The notes under the pieces were generated by a model. That model was given only the letters and a program-made list of their open reading frames with translations, did no database searches and was not told the DNA's origin. This document shows, one piece after another, positions 2,446-17,134 of a stretch of DNA of 38,211 nucleotides. This DNA is from Flavobacteriales bacterium (GTDB taxonomy: Bacteria; Bacteroidota; Bacteroidia; JANQJC01), in the NCBI GenBank assembly GCA_028281825.1, contig JANQJC010000079.1, positions 1 through 38,211 of the forward strand, in the 5' to 3' direction. The first letter of the stretch is position 1. Every line of letters starts with the position of its first letter. Both the position numbers and the translations under genes were made by a program.

Positions 2446-3876
2446 ATGCAATTACCTAAAATAGGAAGAAAACCTGAAGACATACTGAATGACCTTGAGA
2501 GCTTTAAAGCTAAAGATTTGCCATGGGAGTCAGGCAGAGTGTTTGCCTATGTATACGACCCTGGAATAGAAGGGAAAGATATTTTGAAGAAGGCATACTC
2601 GTCATACCTCACTGAAAATGCACTTGACCCCACAGTATTTCCCAGTACTTTGAAGCTAGAGAACGATATAATTAGTATGGCTGGTGGACTAGTCGGTGCT
2701 AAAGAAGATTTCGTAGGTAATTTCACAACCGGGGGTACAGAAAGCATAATGCTGGCCATAAAATCCGCAAGAGATTATTTCAGACATATAAAGCCAGAGA
2801 TTAAAACACCTGAAATAGTAGTGCCACATACTGCACATGCTGCATTTCACAAGGCATGCCAGTTTCTGGGGCTGAAAGCAATTGTTGTTCCTGTTGACAA
2901 AACAACATACAAGGCTATACCAGAAGAAATGGAAAAGGCCATCACCCCAAATACCATTTTACTGGTTGGCTCTGCCCCATCTTATGCACAGGGTGTTGTA
3001 GATCCTATCCCTGAAATGGCAGCCATCGCCCATAAGCATGGCATCCTCTTTCATACCGATGCGTGTGTAGGTGGTTTATTTTTACCTTTTGCGAAAAGAG
3101 CCGGATACGACATCCCAGATTTTGACTTATCAGTACCAGGCGTCACCTCACTTTCAATGGACTTCCATAAGTTTGGATATGCAGCAAAAGGCGCCTCCGC
3201 GGTGCTTTACAATGCGAGAGACCTTAGACGTTTTCAAATATTTACACACTCGGGCTGGGCTGGGTATACAGTGATTAATACCACTGTGCTTTCTACCAAA
3301 GGCGGTGGCCCTCTAGCTGCTTGCTGGGCCATACTTAACCTGCTTGGTGAAGAGGGCTATACCAAAATCATCCGAGACTGCAGAGAAGGAACTGAAAAGA
3401 TAATTAATTGGGTAAAGCAAGAGGAAGGATTGAAAGTTCTTGGTGAGCCAGTAGCTAACCTAGTGGCTGTGGCCTCGGACAAATACAGCGTTTTTAGGAT
3501 ATCAGACCTGATGCGTAAAAAAGGATGGTTTTTACAACCACAATTGGCAGGTAGCACTTCGCAAGAAAATATTCACTTTTCCATAGGAGCAGGTAACGTA
3601 GAGCATATTGATTCCATGCTGAATGACTGGAAAGAAATAATGCAACAGATAAGGGATGAAAACAGACCCGATATGGTGCCTGATATGGAAATGCTGATAG
3701 GAATGCTTGAAAATGCCACCCCAGATACCTTTACACAAATGGAAACTGCATTGGGCCTTCAAGGCGCAGACTTACCCGATGAACTTGAGCCTATAAACCA
3801 AGTACTGAATAGACTGCCGGTTGACCTAAGAAATCAACTACTAACAGAATACTTCAATCGTCTTTATAATAACTAG
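2446..3876 (+). CDS. PLP-dependent lyase/decarboxylase, sphingosine-1-phosphate lyase-like
   Basis: The 476-residue protein is a fold-type I PLP enzyme of the group II decarboxylase family. Visible motifs are 'TTGGTESIMLA' (about 94-104), 'PHTAHAAFHKA' (about 128-137), the cofactor Asp in 'HTDACVGG' (D205) and the Schiff-base lysine K242 in 'DFHKFGYAAKG'. The order and wording of these motifs follow sphingosine-1-phosphate lyase more closely than glutamate or aromatic amino acid decarboxylases. There is no N-terminal TM segment, as in bacterial S1P lyases. It follows the MFS gene by 9 bp. Substrate could be a phosphorylated sphingoid base or a small amino acid; family call is firm, substrate is not. 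Confidence 0.8.
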   Translation: MQLPKIGRKPEDILNDLESFKAKDLPWESGRVFAYVYDPGIEGKDILKKAYSSYLTENALDPTVFPSTLKLENDIISMAGGLVGAKEDFVGNFTTGGTESIMLAIKSARDYFRHIKPEIKTPEIVVPHTAHAAFHKACQFLGLKAIVVPVDKTTYKAIPEEMEKAITPNTILLVGSAPSYAQGVVDPIPEMAAIAHKHGILFHTDACVGGLFLPFAKRAGYDIPDFDLSVPGVTSLSMDFHKFGYAAKGASAVLYNARDLRRFQIFTHSGWAGYTVINTTVLSTKGGGPLAACWAILNLLGEEGYTKIIRDCREGTEKIINWVKQEEGLKVLGEPVANLVAVASDKYSVFRISDLMRKKGWFLQPQLAGSTSQENIHFSIGAGNVEHIDSMLNDWKEIMQQIRDENRPDMVPDMEMLIGMLENATPDTFTQMETALGLQGADLPDELEPINQVLNRLPVDLRNQLLTEYFNRLYNN

Positions 3877-6700: not shown

Positions 6701-7219
6701 CTATTTTTTAGTGTTTTTGTAGATAGGTACAGTGGAGCAAGCCTCACCATACATGATGCTTTTGGCAACGGGCTTCAATAGATTAGTGAGCTCAACATAG
6801 GCCGACTCAGGTACAGGGTATTTGCTACATCCCTTGATGATAACCCTCTGGTCGCGGTAATCTTCGGCATCAACTTGTTTCAGGGCATCGTTGTAAAGCA
6901 CGGTTTCCAATGTTTCCATGTTCCCAAAAACCACCTTTTTAGCGTTTCCTTCAAGGCTGGCAGCCATCAGCATATAAGCCCAGGTAGGCACTATGGCATC
7001 GGCAGTGCAAGTCACCGCTACAAACTTATCCTGGTAAGTAGTCCAATCGGTAGACTTTATTTTATCTCTAAAGTCTTTTTCCTTCAGTATCAAGCCCTCA
7101 AAAAGAAAATCGGCCACGTCAAGCAACACTCTATCTCCCTTAGGGTAATACTCCTCAAGGTCAAAGTCGATTAACCCACTTTGCGCTACCTTATTTTCTA
7201 TAGTCAAATCTTCATCCAT
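6701..7219 (-). CDS. DUF2480 family protein
   Basis: This 172-residue soluble protein lacks a signal peptide. Its text matches what is known of DUF2480, a family found mainly in Bacteroidota and of unknown function: an acidic N-terminus ('IDFDLEEYYP'), 'LFEGLILKEKDFR', 'DKFVAVTCTADAIVPTWAYM' (about 67-86) and a C-terminal 'KGCSKYPVP' segment. The centre includes conserved Cys and Asp residues that could bind a ligand or metal, but this is inference. It is the first gene of a two-gene unit with the PhoD-like phosphatase (zero spacing) and has an exact TAACTTTG box 9 nt before its ATG. Confidence 0.75.
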   Translation of the reverse strand: MDEDLTIENKVAQSGLIDFDLEEYYPKGDRVLLDVADFLFEGLILKEKDFRDKIKSTDWTTYQDKFVAVTCTADAIVPTWAYMLMAASLEGNAKKVVFGNMETLETVLYNDALKQVDAEDYRDQRVIIKGCSKYPVPESAYVELTNLLKPVAKSIMYGEACSTVPIYKNTKK

Positions 7220-7356: not shown

Positions 7357-8025
7357 CTAGTAGACCACCATCACATCTTCTTTGGTTTTTCTTTTCAAGT
7401 CGGGCACTTTTACCCCTTTTGCAGGATATCCAACAGGTATCAGGAGAAAAGGTTTTTCATTTTCAGGCCTTTCCAGCACTTTTTGCAAAAAATTCATAGG
7501 GCTCGGTGTATGGGTCAGTGAAACCAGGCCTGCATTGTGGATGGCAGCCAACAAAAAGCCACTGGCCAGCCCAACAGACTCCGTTACATAGTAGTTGTTT
7601 ACCTTTTCACCATCTACCACGTCATAGGGTTTTTTAAAAACCACTATCAACCAAGGGGCAATTTCTAAAAAAGGTTTATGCCAATCAGTTTCAAAAGGCC
7701 TGAGGTCTTGCAACCATCTCTCAGGCATTCTGCCATGATAGTTTTCATACTCCTCTTTTTCAGCAGCCTCCCTTATTTTCTTTTTTATTTCAGGATTTTT
7801 TATCGCACAAAAAACCCATGGTTGCTTATGTGCACCCGACGGTGAAGAAGACGCTGTCATAATAATGTTTTCAATTACTTCTTGCGGCACTGATTGGCCT
7901 GAAAATTCCCTGATAGTACGCCTTTTGTTCATTCGTGCATAAAAATTTCGGCTATTGATTGCCACCTCATTAGGATTTGTTATAACATAATCATAAGAGA
8001 TAAATGGTTGTTTAGTGTTATCCAT
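7357..8025 (-). CDS. Iodotyrosine deiodinase-like nitroreductase-fold flavoenzyme
   Basis: The 222-residue protein is of the FMN-dependent nitroreductase superfamily, and its details match iodotyrosine deiodinase (IYD). FMN-binding residues lie in 'MNKRRTIREFS' (32-42) and 'SSSPSGAHKQPW' (59-70). The IYD lid triad that clamps the zwitterion of halotyrosine is present with exact spacing: E92, Y96 and K117 (human E157, Y161, K182). The C-terminal region 'IPVGYPAKG...VPDLKRK' is also IYD-like, as is the Thr-rich 'LTHTP' segment near the flavin N5. Unlike the mammalian enzyme it has no N-terminal membrane anchor, as in known bacterial homologs. It probably reductively dehalogenates iodo- or bromotyrosine, or handles a related aromatic amino acid. 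It appears monocistronic. Confidence 0.85.
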   Translation of the reverse strand: MDNTKQPFISYDYVITNPNEVAINSRNFYARMNKRRTIREFSGQSVPQEVIENIIMTASSSPSGAHKQPWVFCAIKNPEIKKKIREAAEKEEYENYHGRMPERWLQDLRPFETDWHKPFLEIAPWLIVVFKKPYDVVDGEKVNNYYVTESVGLASGFLLAAIHNAGLVSLTHTPSPMNFLQKVLERPENEKPFLLIPVGYPAKGVKVPDLKRKTKEDVMVVY

Positions 8026-10835: not shown

Positions 10836-12920
10836 ATGATGAGAAATTTACTACTAGTCGCTGCACTCTTGTGTGGCGTTAATTTTGCGCATTCACAGCA
10901 AATAGTGCCCTGCTATACGGATGAGGTACTACAAAAAAAAATAGAGTCAAACCCACAGCTTAAGGACGAATTCAGACAGTCAAGACTGACTATCCTTGAG
11001 AGTATTAACCCTGACCAAAGGGGTGGCGCTACCAGGATAATCCCCGTTGTTTTCCATATCATTCACGCAGGCGGCAGTGAGAATATTTCAAAAGACCAGA
11101 TACTCGACCAAATGAGAATATTGAATGAGGATTTCAGTCGCACCAATCCTGATACCAGTCTCACGAGAAATATCTTCAAGCCTGTGGCAGGAAACCCTGA
11201 TATTGAATTTCGCCTGGCCCAAAAAGACCCTGAAGGCAATTGCACCGACGGGATAGTAAGGGTATACTCCACTCAAACCACTGGTGCTGATGATAATGCT
11301 AAACTGCTAAGCTCTTGGCCTCGTAATAAATATCTCAATGTGTGGGTAGTGCGCTCTATTGATGCTGATGGGCAAGGCGTTATTTTAGGATATGCTCAAC
11401 TACCCGGCTTTGGTGATGCCGAAACGGATGGCGTAATTGTAAGGCATGATGTTGTGGGTACAATTGGCAGTGCTAACCCTTCATTTAAAAATGCAGGAAG
11501 AACACTTACCCATGAGGTTGGGCATTGGCTGGGCTTGCTGCACACTTTTCAAGGTGGCTGCGGTGGCGGCTTTGGTGAGGGAATTAGTGATACACCTCCA
11601 ATTGCACAAGCTACTACTGGTTGCGACACTACTCAAAACACTTGTAGCAATGATAACCCTGACCTGCCCGACCAGATTGAAAACTATATGGACTACAGCG
11701 ATGGTGTTTGTCAAAACATGTTCAGTCAGGGTCAGGTGGATGTAATGGATGGCGTTTTGGGTGGCTTTAGAAGCAACTTGATAACCTCGGGCAATTTGGA
11801 AGCTACAGGAACAGATGGCACGCCTGCCGATACTTGCATTCCCGTAGCAAATTTTTATACCACCTATAAGGTGACTTGTGTTGGTGATGATATCACCTTT
11901 CATGATGATACTTACAATGGTGTGCCAGATACTTACTCATGGAGTTTTGCAGGGGGCAACCCAGCAAGCTCATCAGATGAATCTCCAACCGTGCAGTTTA
12001 GTCAGCCTGGTTTTCATGACGTATCTTTAACAGTTTCAAATACTTCTGGTTCTGATACTCGCACTGAAACAGATTATATATACGTATTCCCAACCGATGC
12101 CACTGTGAGTAGTTGGATTTATGTTGAAGACTTTGAAGGAAGCAACCCAAACTCTGAGGATTGGGTAGTGATAAATAATGAAGGCTTAGGTAGTGGATGG
12201 CAGCAAGTATCAACAGCCTTTAGCGGTAGCAAAGGCATGAAGCTTAATAACCACTCTGGCAACCCGGGTGGCGCGATAGATGACCTTATTTTACCGCCAA
12301 TTGATTTCACCCAGTTTGGCAGTGCGTCTCTTACCTTTAAGGTAGCTAATGCCCAAAGGCCTGGCGGCACTTTCTCTAGCCCAAGTTCTGATAACCTGAG
12401 AGTATATGTATCCACCAATTGTGGCACTTCATGGCAATTGCGCTACAATAAATCAGGTAGCAACTTAGCAACGGTTTCTTCTACCAATTCAGCATTTACG
12501 CCAAACTCAGAAAGTCAATGGAGAGAAGAAACCGTGAATGTGAGTTCATACCTCGGTAGGGAACACGTGCTTATCCGTTTTGAGGCCCGAAGCGACGGTG
12601 GAAACAATATTTATCTGGACGATATAAACCTTTCTGGCCCTACATCTGTTATGGATAATGATGACATAGTTAAGTTATCATTGGTACCCAACCCAGCGCA
12701 TAATCAGGTAAGGTTATCATTTGATATAAAAGACAGAACCACCATGAAGGGAGAAATTATTGATATCACAGGTAGAAACGTGCTTACAGTTTTTAACACA
12801 ACTCAACTACAAGGCCCCCAAACCTTTGATATCAATACCCAAAATCTTGCAAAGGGCATGTACTATGTGCGCTTAACGGGGTTAAACACCCAATATGTCG
12901 AAAAACTGATACTTAACTAA
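10836..12920 (+). CDS. M43-type secreted metalloprotease 1 with PKD and T9SS sorting domain
   Basis: The 694-residue protein begins with a signal peptide (about 1-20). The pappalysin/cytophagalysin (M43) catalytic domain covers about 60-315: the zinc motif HEVGHWLGLLH has H226, E227, H230, H236, and the Met-turn is 'NYMDYS' (M285). A PKD domain follows (about 335-420, 'YSWSFAGGNP'), then a jelly-roll-like module (about 425-605, 'EDFEGSNPN', 'IYLDDINLSG') and a T9SS type A tail (about 615-694, 'LVPNPAHNQVRLSF', ending 'KLILN'). It is likely exported to the surface and digests proteins. Two ATGs (10836, 10839) are equally possible starts. It is the most divergent of three tandem copies. Confidence 0.9.
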   Translation: MMRNLLLVAALLCGVNFAHSQQIVPCYTDEVLQKKIESNPQLKDEFRQSRLTILESINPDQRGGATRIIPVVFHIIHAGGSENISKDQILDQMRILNEDFSRTNPDTSLTRNIFKPVAGNPDIEFRLAQKDPEGNCTDGIVRVYSTQTTGADDNAKLLSSWPRNKYLNVWVVRSIDADGQGVILGYAQLPGFGDAETDGVIVRHDVVGTIGSANPSFKNAGRTLTHEVGHWLGLLHTFQGGCGGGFGEGISDTPPIAQATTGCDTTQNTCSNDNPDLPDQIENYMDYSDGVCQNMFSQGQVDVMDGVLGGFRSNLITSGNLEATGTDGTPADTCIPVANFYTTYKVTCVGDDITFHDDTYNGVPDTYSWSFAGGNPASSSDESPTVQFSQPGFHDVSLTVSNTSGSDTRTETDYIYVFPTDATVSSWIYVEDFEGSNPNSEDWVVINNEGLGSGWQQVSTAFSGSKGMKLNNHSGNPGGAIDDLILPPIDFTQFGSASLTFKVANAQRPGGTFSSPSSDNLRVYVSTNCGTSWQLRYNKSGSNLATVSSTNSAFTPNSESQWREETVNVSSYLGREHVLIRFEARSDGGNNIYLDDINLSGPTSVMDNDDIVKLSLVPNPAHNQVRLSFDIKDRTTMKGEIIDITGRNVLTVFNTTQLQGPQTFDINTQNLAKGMYYVRLTGLNTQYVEKLILN

Positions 12921-12969
12921 TCAAGAATCACGACATTTGCAACGCTTTTTTAAACAGAACAGTTTTATT

Positions 12970-15024
12970 ATGAAGAACTTAGTTAGTGTTTGCCTACTAT
13001 TAGTTTTTGGCATTACCACTGGTATTGCTCAAAACGAAGTGCCATGCTTCACCAACGAGATGATGGCCAAAAGGATAGCAGAGAACCCCGATATAGAGAG
13101 AATTAATCAAGAGTCTTTTGAATTACTGAATACCCTTGGTGAGAGCCAATCGGCAAATAGGGGCGGTACTGTAGTTATTCCCATGGTATTTCATGTGATA
13201 CATGTTAATGGCCCTGAGAATATTTCAAAGGAACAAATTGAGAGTGGTGTTACTGCACTTAATGAGGATTTTAGCCTGCTAAACGCTGATGCCGCCAATA
13301 TTGATGCCCTATTTCAATCAAGGGCTGCTGACACACAAATCGAGTTTCGTTTGGCCAATAAAGACCCTCAGGGCAATTGTACTGACGGTATTGTTCGTGT
13401 CTATTCTGATTTGACCTTTAATGCTGATGATGATGTAAAAGACTTAAGCGGATGGCCAAACAACAAGTATTTAAATATTTGGGTGGTTGAATCTATTGAA
13501 GATGATGACCCAAATTCAGTAATACTAGGATATGCTTATTTGCCAAACGTGGTATTATGGGGACCTGATATTGATGGCATCGTTATAAGGTCTGATAGGG
13601 TTGGTACTATTGGTACCGCATCAACCAGCAGAACCTTAACTCACGAAGTAGGTCATTATTTAGGCTTATCGCACACTTTTGATGGTGGGTGCAATGGTGG
13701 CGATGGCGTTTCTGATACTCCTCCTACTGCCAATGCTAATCAAGGATGTAATGTGAATCAAAACACTTGCAACAATGATAATCCTGACATTAAAGACAAC
13801 GTTCAAAATCACATGGACTATTCCAGTTGCCGTTTGATGTTCACCAATGGTCAATCTGATAGGATGCACGATGCCATAAGCACTTACAGGACAAGTTTAG
13901 TGTCAAATAGTAACCTGGCAGCTACTGGTGTTATTGGCACTCCAGATATTTGCGCACCTATTGCTGATTTTACATCAAGCACTTATCAAATCTGTGCAGG
14001 CAATACGGTAAGTTTTGCGGACCAAAGCTGGAATGGTACACCAACACAATGGAGTTGGACATTTCAAGGAGGGTCACCTCCCACGGCTACTACGGCTACC
14101 CCAACAATCACCTATAATACTCCAGGCGTATATGATGTGACCCTGGTTGCCTCTAACGCTACAGGTAGTGATACCGAGACTAAAACAGCCTTGGTATATG
14201 TAAGTGGCGATGCCCAGTATTCAGATGCACCTTTTGCTGAGGGTTTTGAAAGTGCAAGTAATTTTAGCAATGACTGGATTGTTGATAATGCTTCAGGTGG
14301 GCAAACATGGTCTCACTTCTCAGGTACATCATATTCGGGTAATTCATGCGTTCGTATGAGCAATTTCAATTCTGATGACGGTAATATAGATGACTTGATA
14401 AGCCCTTCTTATGACATGACTTCTACTTCAAACAATACCATGAAGTTTAAGTATGCCTACGTACAGAGAAATACAGACAATAGCGATAAGCTGAGAGTAT
14501 TATTCTCAACCAATTGCGGACAATCATGGATACTGCGTTGGTCAAAAGCAGGTTCGGTTTTGGCTACCAGTAACTCTCAGCCTTCTCCATTCACGCCAAG
14601 CTCACCTGATCAATGGAGAGAGGTAACCTTAAACCTTCCTTCTACCATTTCATCAAGTGATAATGTGAGGGTGAAGTTTGAGTTCACTTCAGGCGGAGGA
14701 AACATGCTTTACGTAGATGACATCAATCTTGGTGGTACTGTTGGTTTTGAGGAAATCTCAGCTGAAACAATCGGATTGAAATTGTATCCCAACCCAACTG
14801 AAAATAACTCAATGCTTTCATTTGAGCTTATGGAAAGTGAAAGAGTGGCTCTTTATGCTACTGACATGATGGGTAAAAGAATACAAATCACGAACGCTCA
14901 ACAATTGGCCCCAGGCCTACATACGATAGAAATAAGCAAAGCACAACTAAGCGCGGCTGGCGTGTACATGCTTACGCTTGAGGGAGAGAACATGAGAGTG
15001 GTTGAGAAGTTGGTTGTTTACTAA
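12970..15024 (+). CDS. M43-type secreted metalloprotease 2 with PKD and T9SS sorting domain
   Basis: The chosen start is the ATG at 12970, which begins directly with a signal peptide ('MKNLVSVCLLLVFG', ending 'GIAQ'); an in-frame TTG at 12937 would add 11 unhelpful residues. The product is 684 residues. The zinc motif HEVGHYLGLSH has H225, E226, H229 and H235, followed by the 'NHMDYS' Met-turn. PKD ('WSWTFQGGSPP'), a jelly-roll-like module with 'LYVDDINLGG', and a T9SS type A tail ('LKLYPNPTENNSMLSF', end 'KLVVY') follow in order. It lies 49 bp after copy 1 and is much closer in sequence to copy 3. 'GACATTTG' at about 12933-12940 is one base from the -7 consensus and may give a separate promoter. 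Confidence 0.9.
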   Translation: MKNLVSVCLLLVFGITTGIAQNEVPCFTNEMMAKRIAENPDIERINQESFELLNTLGESQSANRGGTVVIPMVFHVIHVNGPENISKEQIESGVTALNEDFSLLNADAANIDALFQSRAADTQIEFRLANKDPQGNCTDGIVRVYSDLTFNADDDVKDLSGWPNNKYLNIWVVESIEDDDPNSVILGYAYLPNVVLWGPDIDGIVIRSDRVGTIGTASTSRTLTHEVGHYLGLSHTFDGGCNGGDGVSDTPPTANANQGCNVNQNTCNNDNPDIKDNVQNHMDYSSCRLMFTNGQSDRMHDAISTYRTSLVSNSNLAATGVIGTPDICAPIADFTSSTYQICAGNTVSFADQSWNGTPTQWSWTFQGGSPPTATTATPTITYNTPGVYDVTLVASNATGSDTETKTALVYVSGDAQYSDAPFAEGFESASNFSNDWIVDNASGGQTWSHFSGTSYSGNSCVRMSNFNSDDGNIDDLISPSYDMTSTSNNTMKFKYAYVQRNTDNSDKLRVLFSTNCGQSWILRWSKAGSVLATSNSQPSPFTPSSPDQWREVTLNLPSTISSSDNVRVKFEFTSGGGNMLYVDDINLGGTVGFEEISAETIGLKLYPNPTENNSMLSFELMESERVALYATDMMGKRIQITNAQQLAPGLHTIEISKAQLSAAGVYMLTLEGENMRVVEKLVVY

Positions 15025-15076
15025 AGAGAAATCCTACATAGGGTTTCTACTAAAACATAGTTTCATCACATACCCT

Positions 15077-17134
15077 ATGAAGAGTATAGCAAGCCTTTCA
15101 TTACTAATCATTTTCGGGATTATTTCAGCAATGGCACAAATCAATGTGCCTTGCTACACTAATGAGATGATGGCTAAGAGGATAGCCGAAAATCCGGAGA
15201 TAGAAAGGATACATCAACAAGTCAATGATATTGTAACTGCCCACAGTGAAAACTATCCGGCAAGTTCCAGGGGCGGAGCTACTGTCATTCCAGTGGTTTT
15301 TCATGTAATACATGCCAATGGCCCTGAAAATATATCTAAGGAGCGCATAGAGTTGCAGATAGAGAAGATGAACGAAGACTTTAGCTTAAGCAACCCTGAT
15401 ACAGCCAATATTGAATCGATTTTTAAGCCAGTAGCAGCTAATGCAGGGATAGAATTTCGCTTAGCCAATATTGACCCAAACGGTAATTGTACCGATGGGA
15501 TAGTAAGGGTATATTCTGAACTCACATACGATGCTAATGATAACGTTAAACCATTAAGCAGGTGGCCCAATACTAAGTACTTGAATATATGGGTGGTATC
15601 TTATATCGAGTTGGAGGGTGATGACCCCGACTTTGTGGTAGGCGGATATGCTTATTATCCGAGTGTAGTGAATTGGGGGCCTGAAATTGACGGGATAGTG
15701 ATACGTGCAGACCAGGTTGGAGCTACTTTTAATAGTCGCACTTTGACCCATGAGGTAGGCCATTATCTCAATTTAGCCCACACTTTTGATGGCGGCTGTT
15801 TTGGAGGGGATAATGTAAGCGATACCCCACCTACAGCTGAGCCTAATTATGGATGCCCCTTGAACCTAAACTCATGCAATAATGATAATCCCAATATCAA
15901 GGATAACGTCCAAAACTACATGGACTATTCTGACTGTGGTGTGATGTTTACCCAAGGTCAGGTTTCAAGGATGCTTTCAGCCATTAGTAACTATAGGCTG
16001 CAACTAGTTTCTTCTGGCAATCTGGCTGCTACAGGAGTTAACAATAATCCACCAGATTTGTGCAAACCAACAGCGGATTTCTTGGCGAGTAATTACCAGG
16101 TGTGTGCAGGCAATACCGTCACTTTCACAGACCAAAGCTGGAATGGCCAACCAACCCAATGGAGTTGGACATTTGACGGTGGTTCCCCACAATCTGCAAC
16201 CACAGAAAATCCAACCATTACATATAACACACCGGGAATTTACGATGTAACTCTTGTTGCATCCAATTCTTCAGGAAGTGATACTGAAACTAAAACAGCT
16301 CATGTGCAGGTTTATGGTAACGCATTGCTTACCAACGCCCCCTATGCTGAAGGCTTTGAGGATGTGTCATTTTTCAATAATAACTGGGAGATTGAAGGCT
16401 CACAAGGTGGACAACAATGGAGCCGTTATTCAGGGGCAGCATACACTGGTAGCTCGTGTGTGAGGATAAACAACTTTAACTCCAGTGTAGGTGAGATAGA
16501 CAATCTGATAAGCCCATCATATGATATGAGTGTTGCACCCAACACTACCATGAAGTTTAAGTACGCCTACGTGCAAAGGGATGAAGATAGTAGTGATAAG
16601 CTAAGGGTATTATTTTCAACTAACTGCGGTGCCACCTGGATATTAAGATGGTCAAAAACAGGTTCAACCCTGGCTACTGGCAATCCACAATCGTCACCAT
16701 TTATCCCAAGCTCTACCAGTCAATGGGAAGCGGTGTCTATTAATCTACCCTCTAGCATATATGAAAGTGATAATGTGAGAATGAGGTTCGAGTTCACTTC
16801 CGGCAGAGGCAACATGCTGTATATAGATGATATCAACCTTGGTGGAACTGTCGGGATTGAAGACATAACTGCAGAGACCATCAGGCTCACCTTGTCACCT
16901 AACCCAACTGAAAATAGCTCAGTGCTTTCATTTGAATTAATGGAAAGTGAAAGAATTGCCCTTTACGCTACCGACATGATGGGCAAAAGAATGCAAATCA
17001 CGGGCGCTCAACAACTGGCTCCGGGGCAGCACAGGATAGAAATACACAAGGAACTACTGGGCGCGGCTGGCATTTACATGCTCACTCTTGAAGGGGAGAA
17101 TATGAGAATAGTTGAGAAATTGGTCGTTTACTAA
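15077..17134 (+). CDS. M43-type secreted metalloprotease 3, Gly-to-Asn in the zinc motif
   Basis: The start at 15077 ('MKSIASLSLLIIFG', signal peptide ending 'SAMAQ') is preferred; an upstream in-frame TTG at 15002 lies inside copy 2. The product has 685 residues with the same order as its neighbours: M43 domain, PKD ('WSWTFDGGSPQ'), jelly-roll-like module and T9SS tail ('LTLSPNPTENSSVLSF', end 'KLVVY'). The zinc motif reads HEVGHYLNLAH: zinc ligands H225, H229, H235 and the base E226 are kept, but the usual Gly of HExxHxxGxxH is Asn232 (codon AAT). The Met-turn 'NYMDYS' is intact. The stop overlaps the convergent uvrC stop by four bases (17131-17134). Confidence 0.88.
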   Translation: MKSIASLSLLIIFGIISAMAQINVPCYTNEMMAKRIAENPEIERIHQQVNDIVTAHSENYPASSRGGATVIPVVFHVIHANGPENISKERIELQIEKMNEDFSLSNPDTANIESIFKPVAANAGIEFRLANIDPNGNCTDGIVRVYSELTYDANDNVKPLSRWPNTKYLNIWVVSYIELEGDDPDFVVGGYAYYPSVVNWGPEIDGIVIRADQVGATFNSRTLTHEVGHYLNLAHTFDGGCFGGDNVSDTPPTAEPNYGCPLNLNSCNNDNPNIKDNVQNYMDYSDCGVMFTQGQVSRMLSAISNYRLQLVSSGNLAATGVNNNPPDLCKPTADFLASNYQVCAGNTVTFTDQSWNGQPTQWSWTFDGGSPQSATTENPTITYNTPGIYDVTLVASNSSGSDTETKTAHVQVYGNALLTNAPYAEGFEDVSFFNNNWEIEGSQGGQQWSRYSGAAYTGSSCVRINNFNSSVGEIDNLISPSYDMSVAPNTTMKFKYAYVQRDEDSSDKLRVLFSTNCGATWILRWSKTGSTLATGNPQSSPFIPSSTSQWEAVSINLPSSIYESDNVRMRFEFTSGRGNMLYIDDINLGGTVGIEDITAETIRLTLSPNPTENSSVLSFELMESERIALYATDMMGKRMQITGAQQLAPGQHRIEIHKELLGAAGIYMLTLEGENMRIVEKLVVY

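Follow-up and report, generated by a model that had tools for sequence, protein, structure and literature searches.

Structures of iodotyrosine deiodinase (IYD) are on record for the human and mouse enzymes (IYD/DEHAL1; PDB 4ttb, 4ttc, 3gfd, 3gh8, 3tnz and 5yak), for the bacterial enzyme of H. hydrossis (5ko7, 5ko8 and 5krd), and for an enzyme that we take to be that of Thermotoga neapolitana (6pz0, 6q1b, 6q1l and 6tyk). The roles of the single lid residues Glu, Tyr and Lys, and the mechanistic meaning of the Thr at the flavin, belong to the general background on this family. In PMC5499721, the lid helix is described as enveloping MIT and FMN, with its side chains binding MIT, and PMC3930498 gives R96, R97, S98, R100, P123, S124, T235 and R275 as the FMN contacts of mouse IYD. 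The C. elegans ortholog is described as a transmembrane protein in PMC3930498, and human DEHAL1 is so described by a title in the reference list of PMC13078365. Regarding substrates, PMC4708624 reports that mammalian DEHAL1/IYD debrominates bromotyrosine in vitro and mentions an earlier report in which significant dechlorination of chlorotyrosine was not demonstrable; a title in its reference list claims dehalogenation of chlorinated substrates. For IYD ‘from mammals to bacteria’, the review PMC13078365 cites a paper of 2014, and the references of PMC8076288 include a dissertation of 2017 that deals with the H. hydrossis enzyme.

Here, we analysed a window of 38,211 nucleotides (Flavobacteriales bacterium, contig JANQJC010000079.1), in which an ORF on the minus strand, with start codon ATG and a product of 222 aa, was compared with these enzymes. 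The features used below are as follows.

7357..8025, minus strand: IYD ortholog, 222 aa, putative FMN-dependent reductive halotyrosine dehalogenase (phmmer against the PDB, PF00881, tree, fold search)
7738..7752, minus strand: lid residues E92 to Y96, codons 92-96 (codon positions counted from the ATG at 8025; columns invariant)
7675..7677, minus strand: third lid residue K117, codon 117 (position arithmetic; invariant column)
7507..7509, minus strand: T173, codon 173, equivalent to mouse T235 and human T239 (alignment, and mouse FMN contacts from PMC3930498)
8026..8111: intergenic region of 86 bp between the IYD gene and a divergent macro-domain gene (ORF list)
6701..7219, minus strand: DUF2480 gene, 137 bp downstream of IYD (PF10652, E 1.6e-76)

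A phmmer search of the PDB with the ORF protein gave H. hydrossis IYD (5ko7/5ko8/5krd) as the top match (E 3.9e-98) and mammalian IYDs second (E 5e-58 to 9e-57), followed by 6pz0 (E 6.3e-26), with the remaining nitroreductases from E 1.1e-9 onward. The E value of the top match, to a bacterial IYD of known structure, excludes chance resemblance. In a three-way alignment of the ORF protein, H. hydrossis IYD and the human IYD segment, with letters taken from the PDB alignments, identity over the common length was 67% with the H. hydrossis enzyme and 47% with the human segment. The H. hydrossis enzyme is from another organism. The two proteins share the lid triad, the H172-T173 motif and the (predicted) fold, and where lid and FMN positions were compared they are identical. 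Shared with human and mouse IYD are the triad, the FMN contacts, T239/T235 and the C-terminal PVGYP...VPDLKRK text, whereas their constructs carry additional residues ahead of the shared domain (matches start at chain residue 46-54) and human IYD has T where the window protein has H172. The 6pz0-type enzymes (6pz0, 6q1b, 6q1l, 6tyk) have fold and molecule name in common with the window protein, but they are far more distant, with 31-32% identity and a shorter chain of 192 aa.

E92, Y96 and K117 occupy invariant columns, gap-free between, in the alignment with human and H. hydrossis IYD. The preliminary description had stated that these residues keep the spacing of the human triad, which we take to be numbered E157, Y161 and K182, and this was borne out by the ungapped alignment (+4/+21 in both). 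It had also called the C-terminal ‘PVGYPAKG...VPDLKRK’ IYD-like, and human IYD indeed has the counterpart PVGYPSKEATVPDLKRK in the PDB alignment. The mouse FMN contacts, as given in PMC3930498, align to R35, R36, T37, R39, P62, S63, T173 and R212, the sole change being T37 (S in mouse), and human T239, the mutated position in the title of 5yak, aligns to T173.

The comparison was extended to an alignment of 118 rows, made up of 116 loci (one gene twice, L131 being L017) and two PDB sequences. The lid triad is intact in 117 of the 118 rows, a count that is partly circular because 80 of the loci, the best 80 of 435 relatives, were found by patterns covering the E92-Y96 stretch; the sole exception, L016, is a row shortened by start-codon choice, and E, Y and K are present there on re-reading. 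In the 36 rows fetched by similarity alone and thus pattern-independent (the window and one duplicate included), the triad was found in 35, with L016 again the exception. Across all rows, again with the best 80 of 435 relatives among them, the T173 position is T (118/118), and the FMN contacts vary at S63 (N in 15), R212 (K in 16) and R36 (C in 1), all three of which are unaltered in the window's own protein.

An outgroup was drawn from 24 other PF00881 proteins of 31 genomes of the phylum, and 22 remained after two fused rows of 559 aa (L121, L122) were dropped. A quick maximum-likelihood tree was then calculated from 73 of 139 rows, i.e. all 22 outgroup rows and 51 IYD rows, to which the 117 available had been thinned by locus number; L016 and the 6pz0-type IYDs were left out, and a single animal row and no archaeal ones were included. 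One branch, with SH-aLRT 99, split the 22 nitroreductases from the IYD-like rows, which comprised the human and H. hydrossis enzymes, and many long branches were flagged by the tree program. The row nearest to the window protein by tree path is H. hydrossis IYD. Phylogeny, which the preliminary description had proposed as a check, thus placed the window protein with the IYDs and not outside their clade.

An AlphaFold2 model from 24 sequences reached a mean pLDDT of 89.6 and a pTM of 0.85; it places helices at 78-98 and 102-111, and block confidence is 81-85 across residues 91-120. Foldseek ranked 5ko8_B first (TM 0.92), a bacterial IYD whose structure contains both FMN and mono-iodotyrosine, and the two 5ko7 chains with FMN only scored TM 0.81 and 0.83. 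These chains have a length of 200-202 residues versus 215-218, which we read as a lid unresolved in the crystal. The model is ligand-free and shows only that the ORF protein would be able to adopt the closed-lid shape.

The protein belongs to the IYD family: it has the nitroreductase fold (as predicted) with the FMN contacts, the E/Y/K lid triad and the flavin Thr (T173). From sequence, model and analogy, we regard it as very probable that the gene product is an H. hydrossis-type iodotyrosine deiodinase that binds FMN and has the halotyrosine dehalogenase chemistry of this type. The initial assignment as an IYD homolog is backed by the sequence comparison and the key residues as well as by the tree and the fold model. 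Binding mode, dimer, chemistry and a soluble location are carried over from relatives with known structures or assays, and in part from general knowledge. By this analogy, the lid formed by E92, Y96 and K117 would, on closing, cover the amino-acid end of a free 3-halotyrosine and help its phenol ring to stack onto FMN, T173 would touch the flavin and favour one-electron chemistry, and the reduced FMN would expel iodide or bromide so that tyrosine remains. Removal of iodide or bromide from free halotyrosines to give tyrosine is most likely what the enzyme would do.

Such genes are not rare in the phylum. IYD matches (E ≤ 1e-20) were found in 88 of 296 sampled genomes, in 54 of 140 genera. Separately, the named relatives among the best 80 of 435 from the pattern search include Flavobacterium, Pedobacter (one of them labelled Leaf216), Pontibacter, Fulvivirga, Phaeodactylibacter and many Saprospiraceae. 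Surprise at an IYD in a bacterium without a thyroid, as voiced at first, did not stand: the PDB record of 5ko8 is dated 2017, so that the structure of a bacterial IYD with 67% identity has been available since then, and 88 of 296 genomes match. The find is ordinary because bacterial IYDs, crystal structures included, were already known. The window gene adds a further ortholog to a family found in both animals and bacteria, and other matching genomes are equally useful. One of the 88 matches, G151:C12:246651-247250, contains three in-frame stops (two TAG and one TAA) and is possibly a decayed copy.

As to physiology, we give about even chances to a role in which halotyrosines are salvaged or detoxified and the tyrosine is either re-used or degraded via HPPD and homogentisate. 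The window's own genome has HPPD (C122) and two FAA-hydrolase-family genes. A gene beside HPPD partially matches the N-terminal domain of homogentisate dioxygenase (E 1.3e-13), and NCBIfam gave it no model at E ≤ 1e-30. Hence, freed tyrosine could be degraded, which is permissive evidence only. Across genomes, HPPD was found in 61 of 88 with IYD versus 104 of 208 without (odds ratio 2.26, Fisher p 0.003, uncorrected for kinship), and a single family, f24, supplies 26 of the 61. We regard this link to tyrosine catabolism as weak. The 61 genomes with both genes and the 27 of 88 with IYD and without HPPD make a direct genetic comparison possible. Neither HPPD nor a homogentisate-dioxygenase-like gene was found in loci L001-L110, of which L001-L030 were covered with about 1.5 kb of flanking sequence and L031-L110 with up to 8 kb. 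The sole case of proximity seen is genome G219 (L113), where IYD lies ~2.4 kb from HPPD with an AsnC-type regulator between, and the gene after HPPD is 55% identical to the homogentisate-dioxygenase-like gene of the window's genome, with Pfam Cupin_2 as its only match. The stretch L113:45-5578 holds, near IYD, this regulator, HPPD, the homogentisate-dioxygenase-like gene and a gene that we presume to be NUDIX-like.

A search of the window's own genome for the Trp-halogenase family gave no match, while the same search matched 5 of 14 control genomes; the An_peroxidase search matched no control genome. The preliminary description had suggested turnover of marine halotyrosines, for which we find no evidence here: relatives include Pedobacter Leaf216, there is no Trp-halogenase-type match, and no conserved catabolic neighbour was found.

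Within the window, Pfam and NCBIfam annotation of the neighbours agrees with the earlier remark that no dehalogenation partner adjoins IYD. The 86-bp intergenic region has 5 promoter-like hits versus a shuffled mean of 4.5, and 1 terminator-like hit versus a mean of 2.0, which is no excess over shuffled sequence. Downstream of IYD, the DUF2480 gene is possibly co-transcribed with it, and a PhoD-like phosphatase gene also lies downstream on the same strand. Neighbours were clustered for the window and 108 other IYD loci (L018 of 109 was lost as no anchor ORF was found), with flanks of the lengths given above, and no clustered relative of DUF2480 occurs among the listed ±3 neighbours of the 108 loci, some of which have ~1.5 kb of flank. 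No neighbour is general around these 108 loci, and the idea that gene neighbourhood would point to function was rejected. The commonest neighbour, a short-chain dehydrogenase gene, directly precedes IYD in the same orientation (18/108 loci, 12 of the 18 titled Saprospiraceae; gaps of -4 to 218 bp), e.g. L035:7099-7821, L041:4744-5448 and L102:7284-7982; these dehydrogenases are of at least two sequence types, and none is in that place at the window IYD. They may point to a redox partner, chiefly in Saprospiraceae. The window locus touches on why bacteria that lack thyroid hormones retain IYD and on what reduces its flavin, without helping to resolve these questions. At 9 of the 108 loci, genes that we take to be HisIE-like are first or second upstream of IYD. 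A PLP-dependent lyase at 2446-3876 on the plus strand was considered as a tyrosine decarboxylase partner and rejected, as the solved proteins closest to it are sphingosine-1-phosphate lyases (E 3.6e-85 versus 3.9e-39 for tyrosine decarboxylases); it scores 243.9 bits with the NCBIfam model MfnA, under the cut-off of 299.4.

The same data allow another reading of the role, in which the protein is an IYD by descent and can dehalogenate iodotyrosine in vitro, but turns over halotyrosines only on the side, its native bacterial substrate being a different compound derived from an aromatic amino acid. As this reading shares the enzyme identity with our preferred one and differs on role, the confidences overlap. 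We consider it unlikely, though not negligible: matches occur in 88 of 296 genomes, yet conserved neighbours are missing and the coupling to HPPD is loose, the window's own genome has no Trp-halogenase-type gene, and in this genome (4.02 Mb, 96% complete) IYD is the single PF00881 match at E ≤ 0.001, so that several redox tasks are possible for it; however, the triad and T173 are kept throughout the clade, which fits selection for the known chemistry.

Returning to halotyrosine dehalogenation, a broader scenario would have Bacteroidota-type IYDs as a widespread halotyrosine salvage feeding tyrosine catabolism, from which bacterial lineage the animal thyroid enzyme was acquired; we hold this to be quite improbable. 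In the tree, the human row falls inside bacterial rows together with L006 and L009 (SH-aLRT 99 for the three), on a long, flagged branch (1.64). This placement, based on a single animal sequence and no archaeal ones, may be a long-branch artefact, and given the branch of 1.64 we draw no conclusion on the origin of animal IYD.

Pfam detected PF00881 Nitroreductase alone in the ORF protein (71.5 bits), and NCBIfam gave BluB, FbiB and other nitroreductase-superfamily models, all under their cut-offs, with no IYD model above threshold. BluB, the FbiB C-terminal domain and general nitroreductases have the PF00881 fold in common with the window IYD, but its scores with the BluB and FbiB models are far under the cut-offs (for BluB, TIGR02476, 51.1 bits at a cut-off of 150 bits). 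The 22 other nitroreductases of the phylum differ from it by the branch described above and by the triad, which is found in 0 of 22, a region that aligns poorly at such distance; in the sample compared, the claim that other nitroreductases lack this lid is thus true. Hence, a general nitroreductase or flavin reductase that merely resembles IYD can practically be dismissed despite these family-level annotations, because the protein is 67% identical to a solved IYD, has an iodotyrosine complex as its top fold match, and groups with IYDs in the tree apart from 22 proteins that all miss the triad, and the NCBIfam outcome means merely that no IYD model exceeded threshold.

Other genes of the window were recorded alongside. 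Three M43 metallopeptidase paralogs with PKD domains lie in tandem at 10836-17134 on the plus strand (Pfam), two of them with Por_Secre_tail (T9SS), and L048 and L057 have one related M43 peptidase each near IYD. A cystathionine-gamma-synthase-like gene (69% identity) is found near IYD together with the related M43 peptidase genes in the window, L048 and L057, and this common gene order looks like old shared synteny rather than function. Finally, the segment 27055-29482 carries amidohydrolase and 3-hydroxyanthranilate 3,4-dioxygenase genes on the minus strand and an SDR gene on the plus strand, which look like part of kynurenine degradation.
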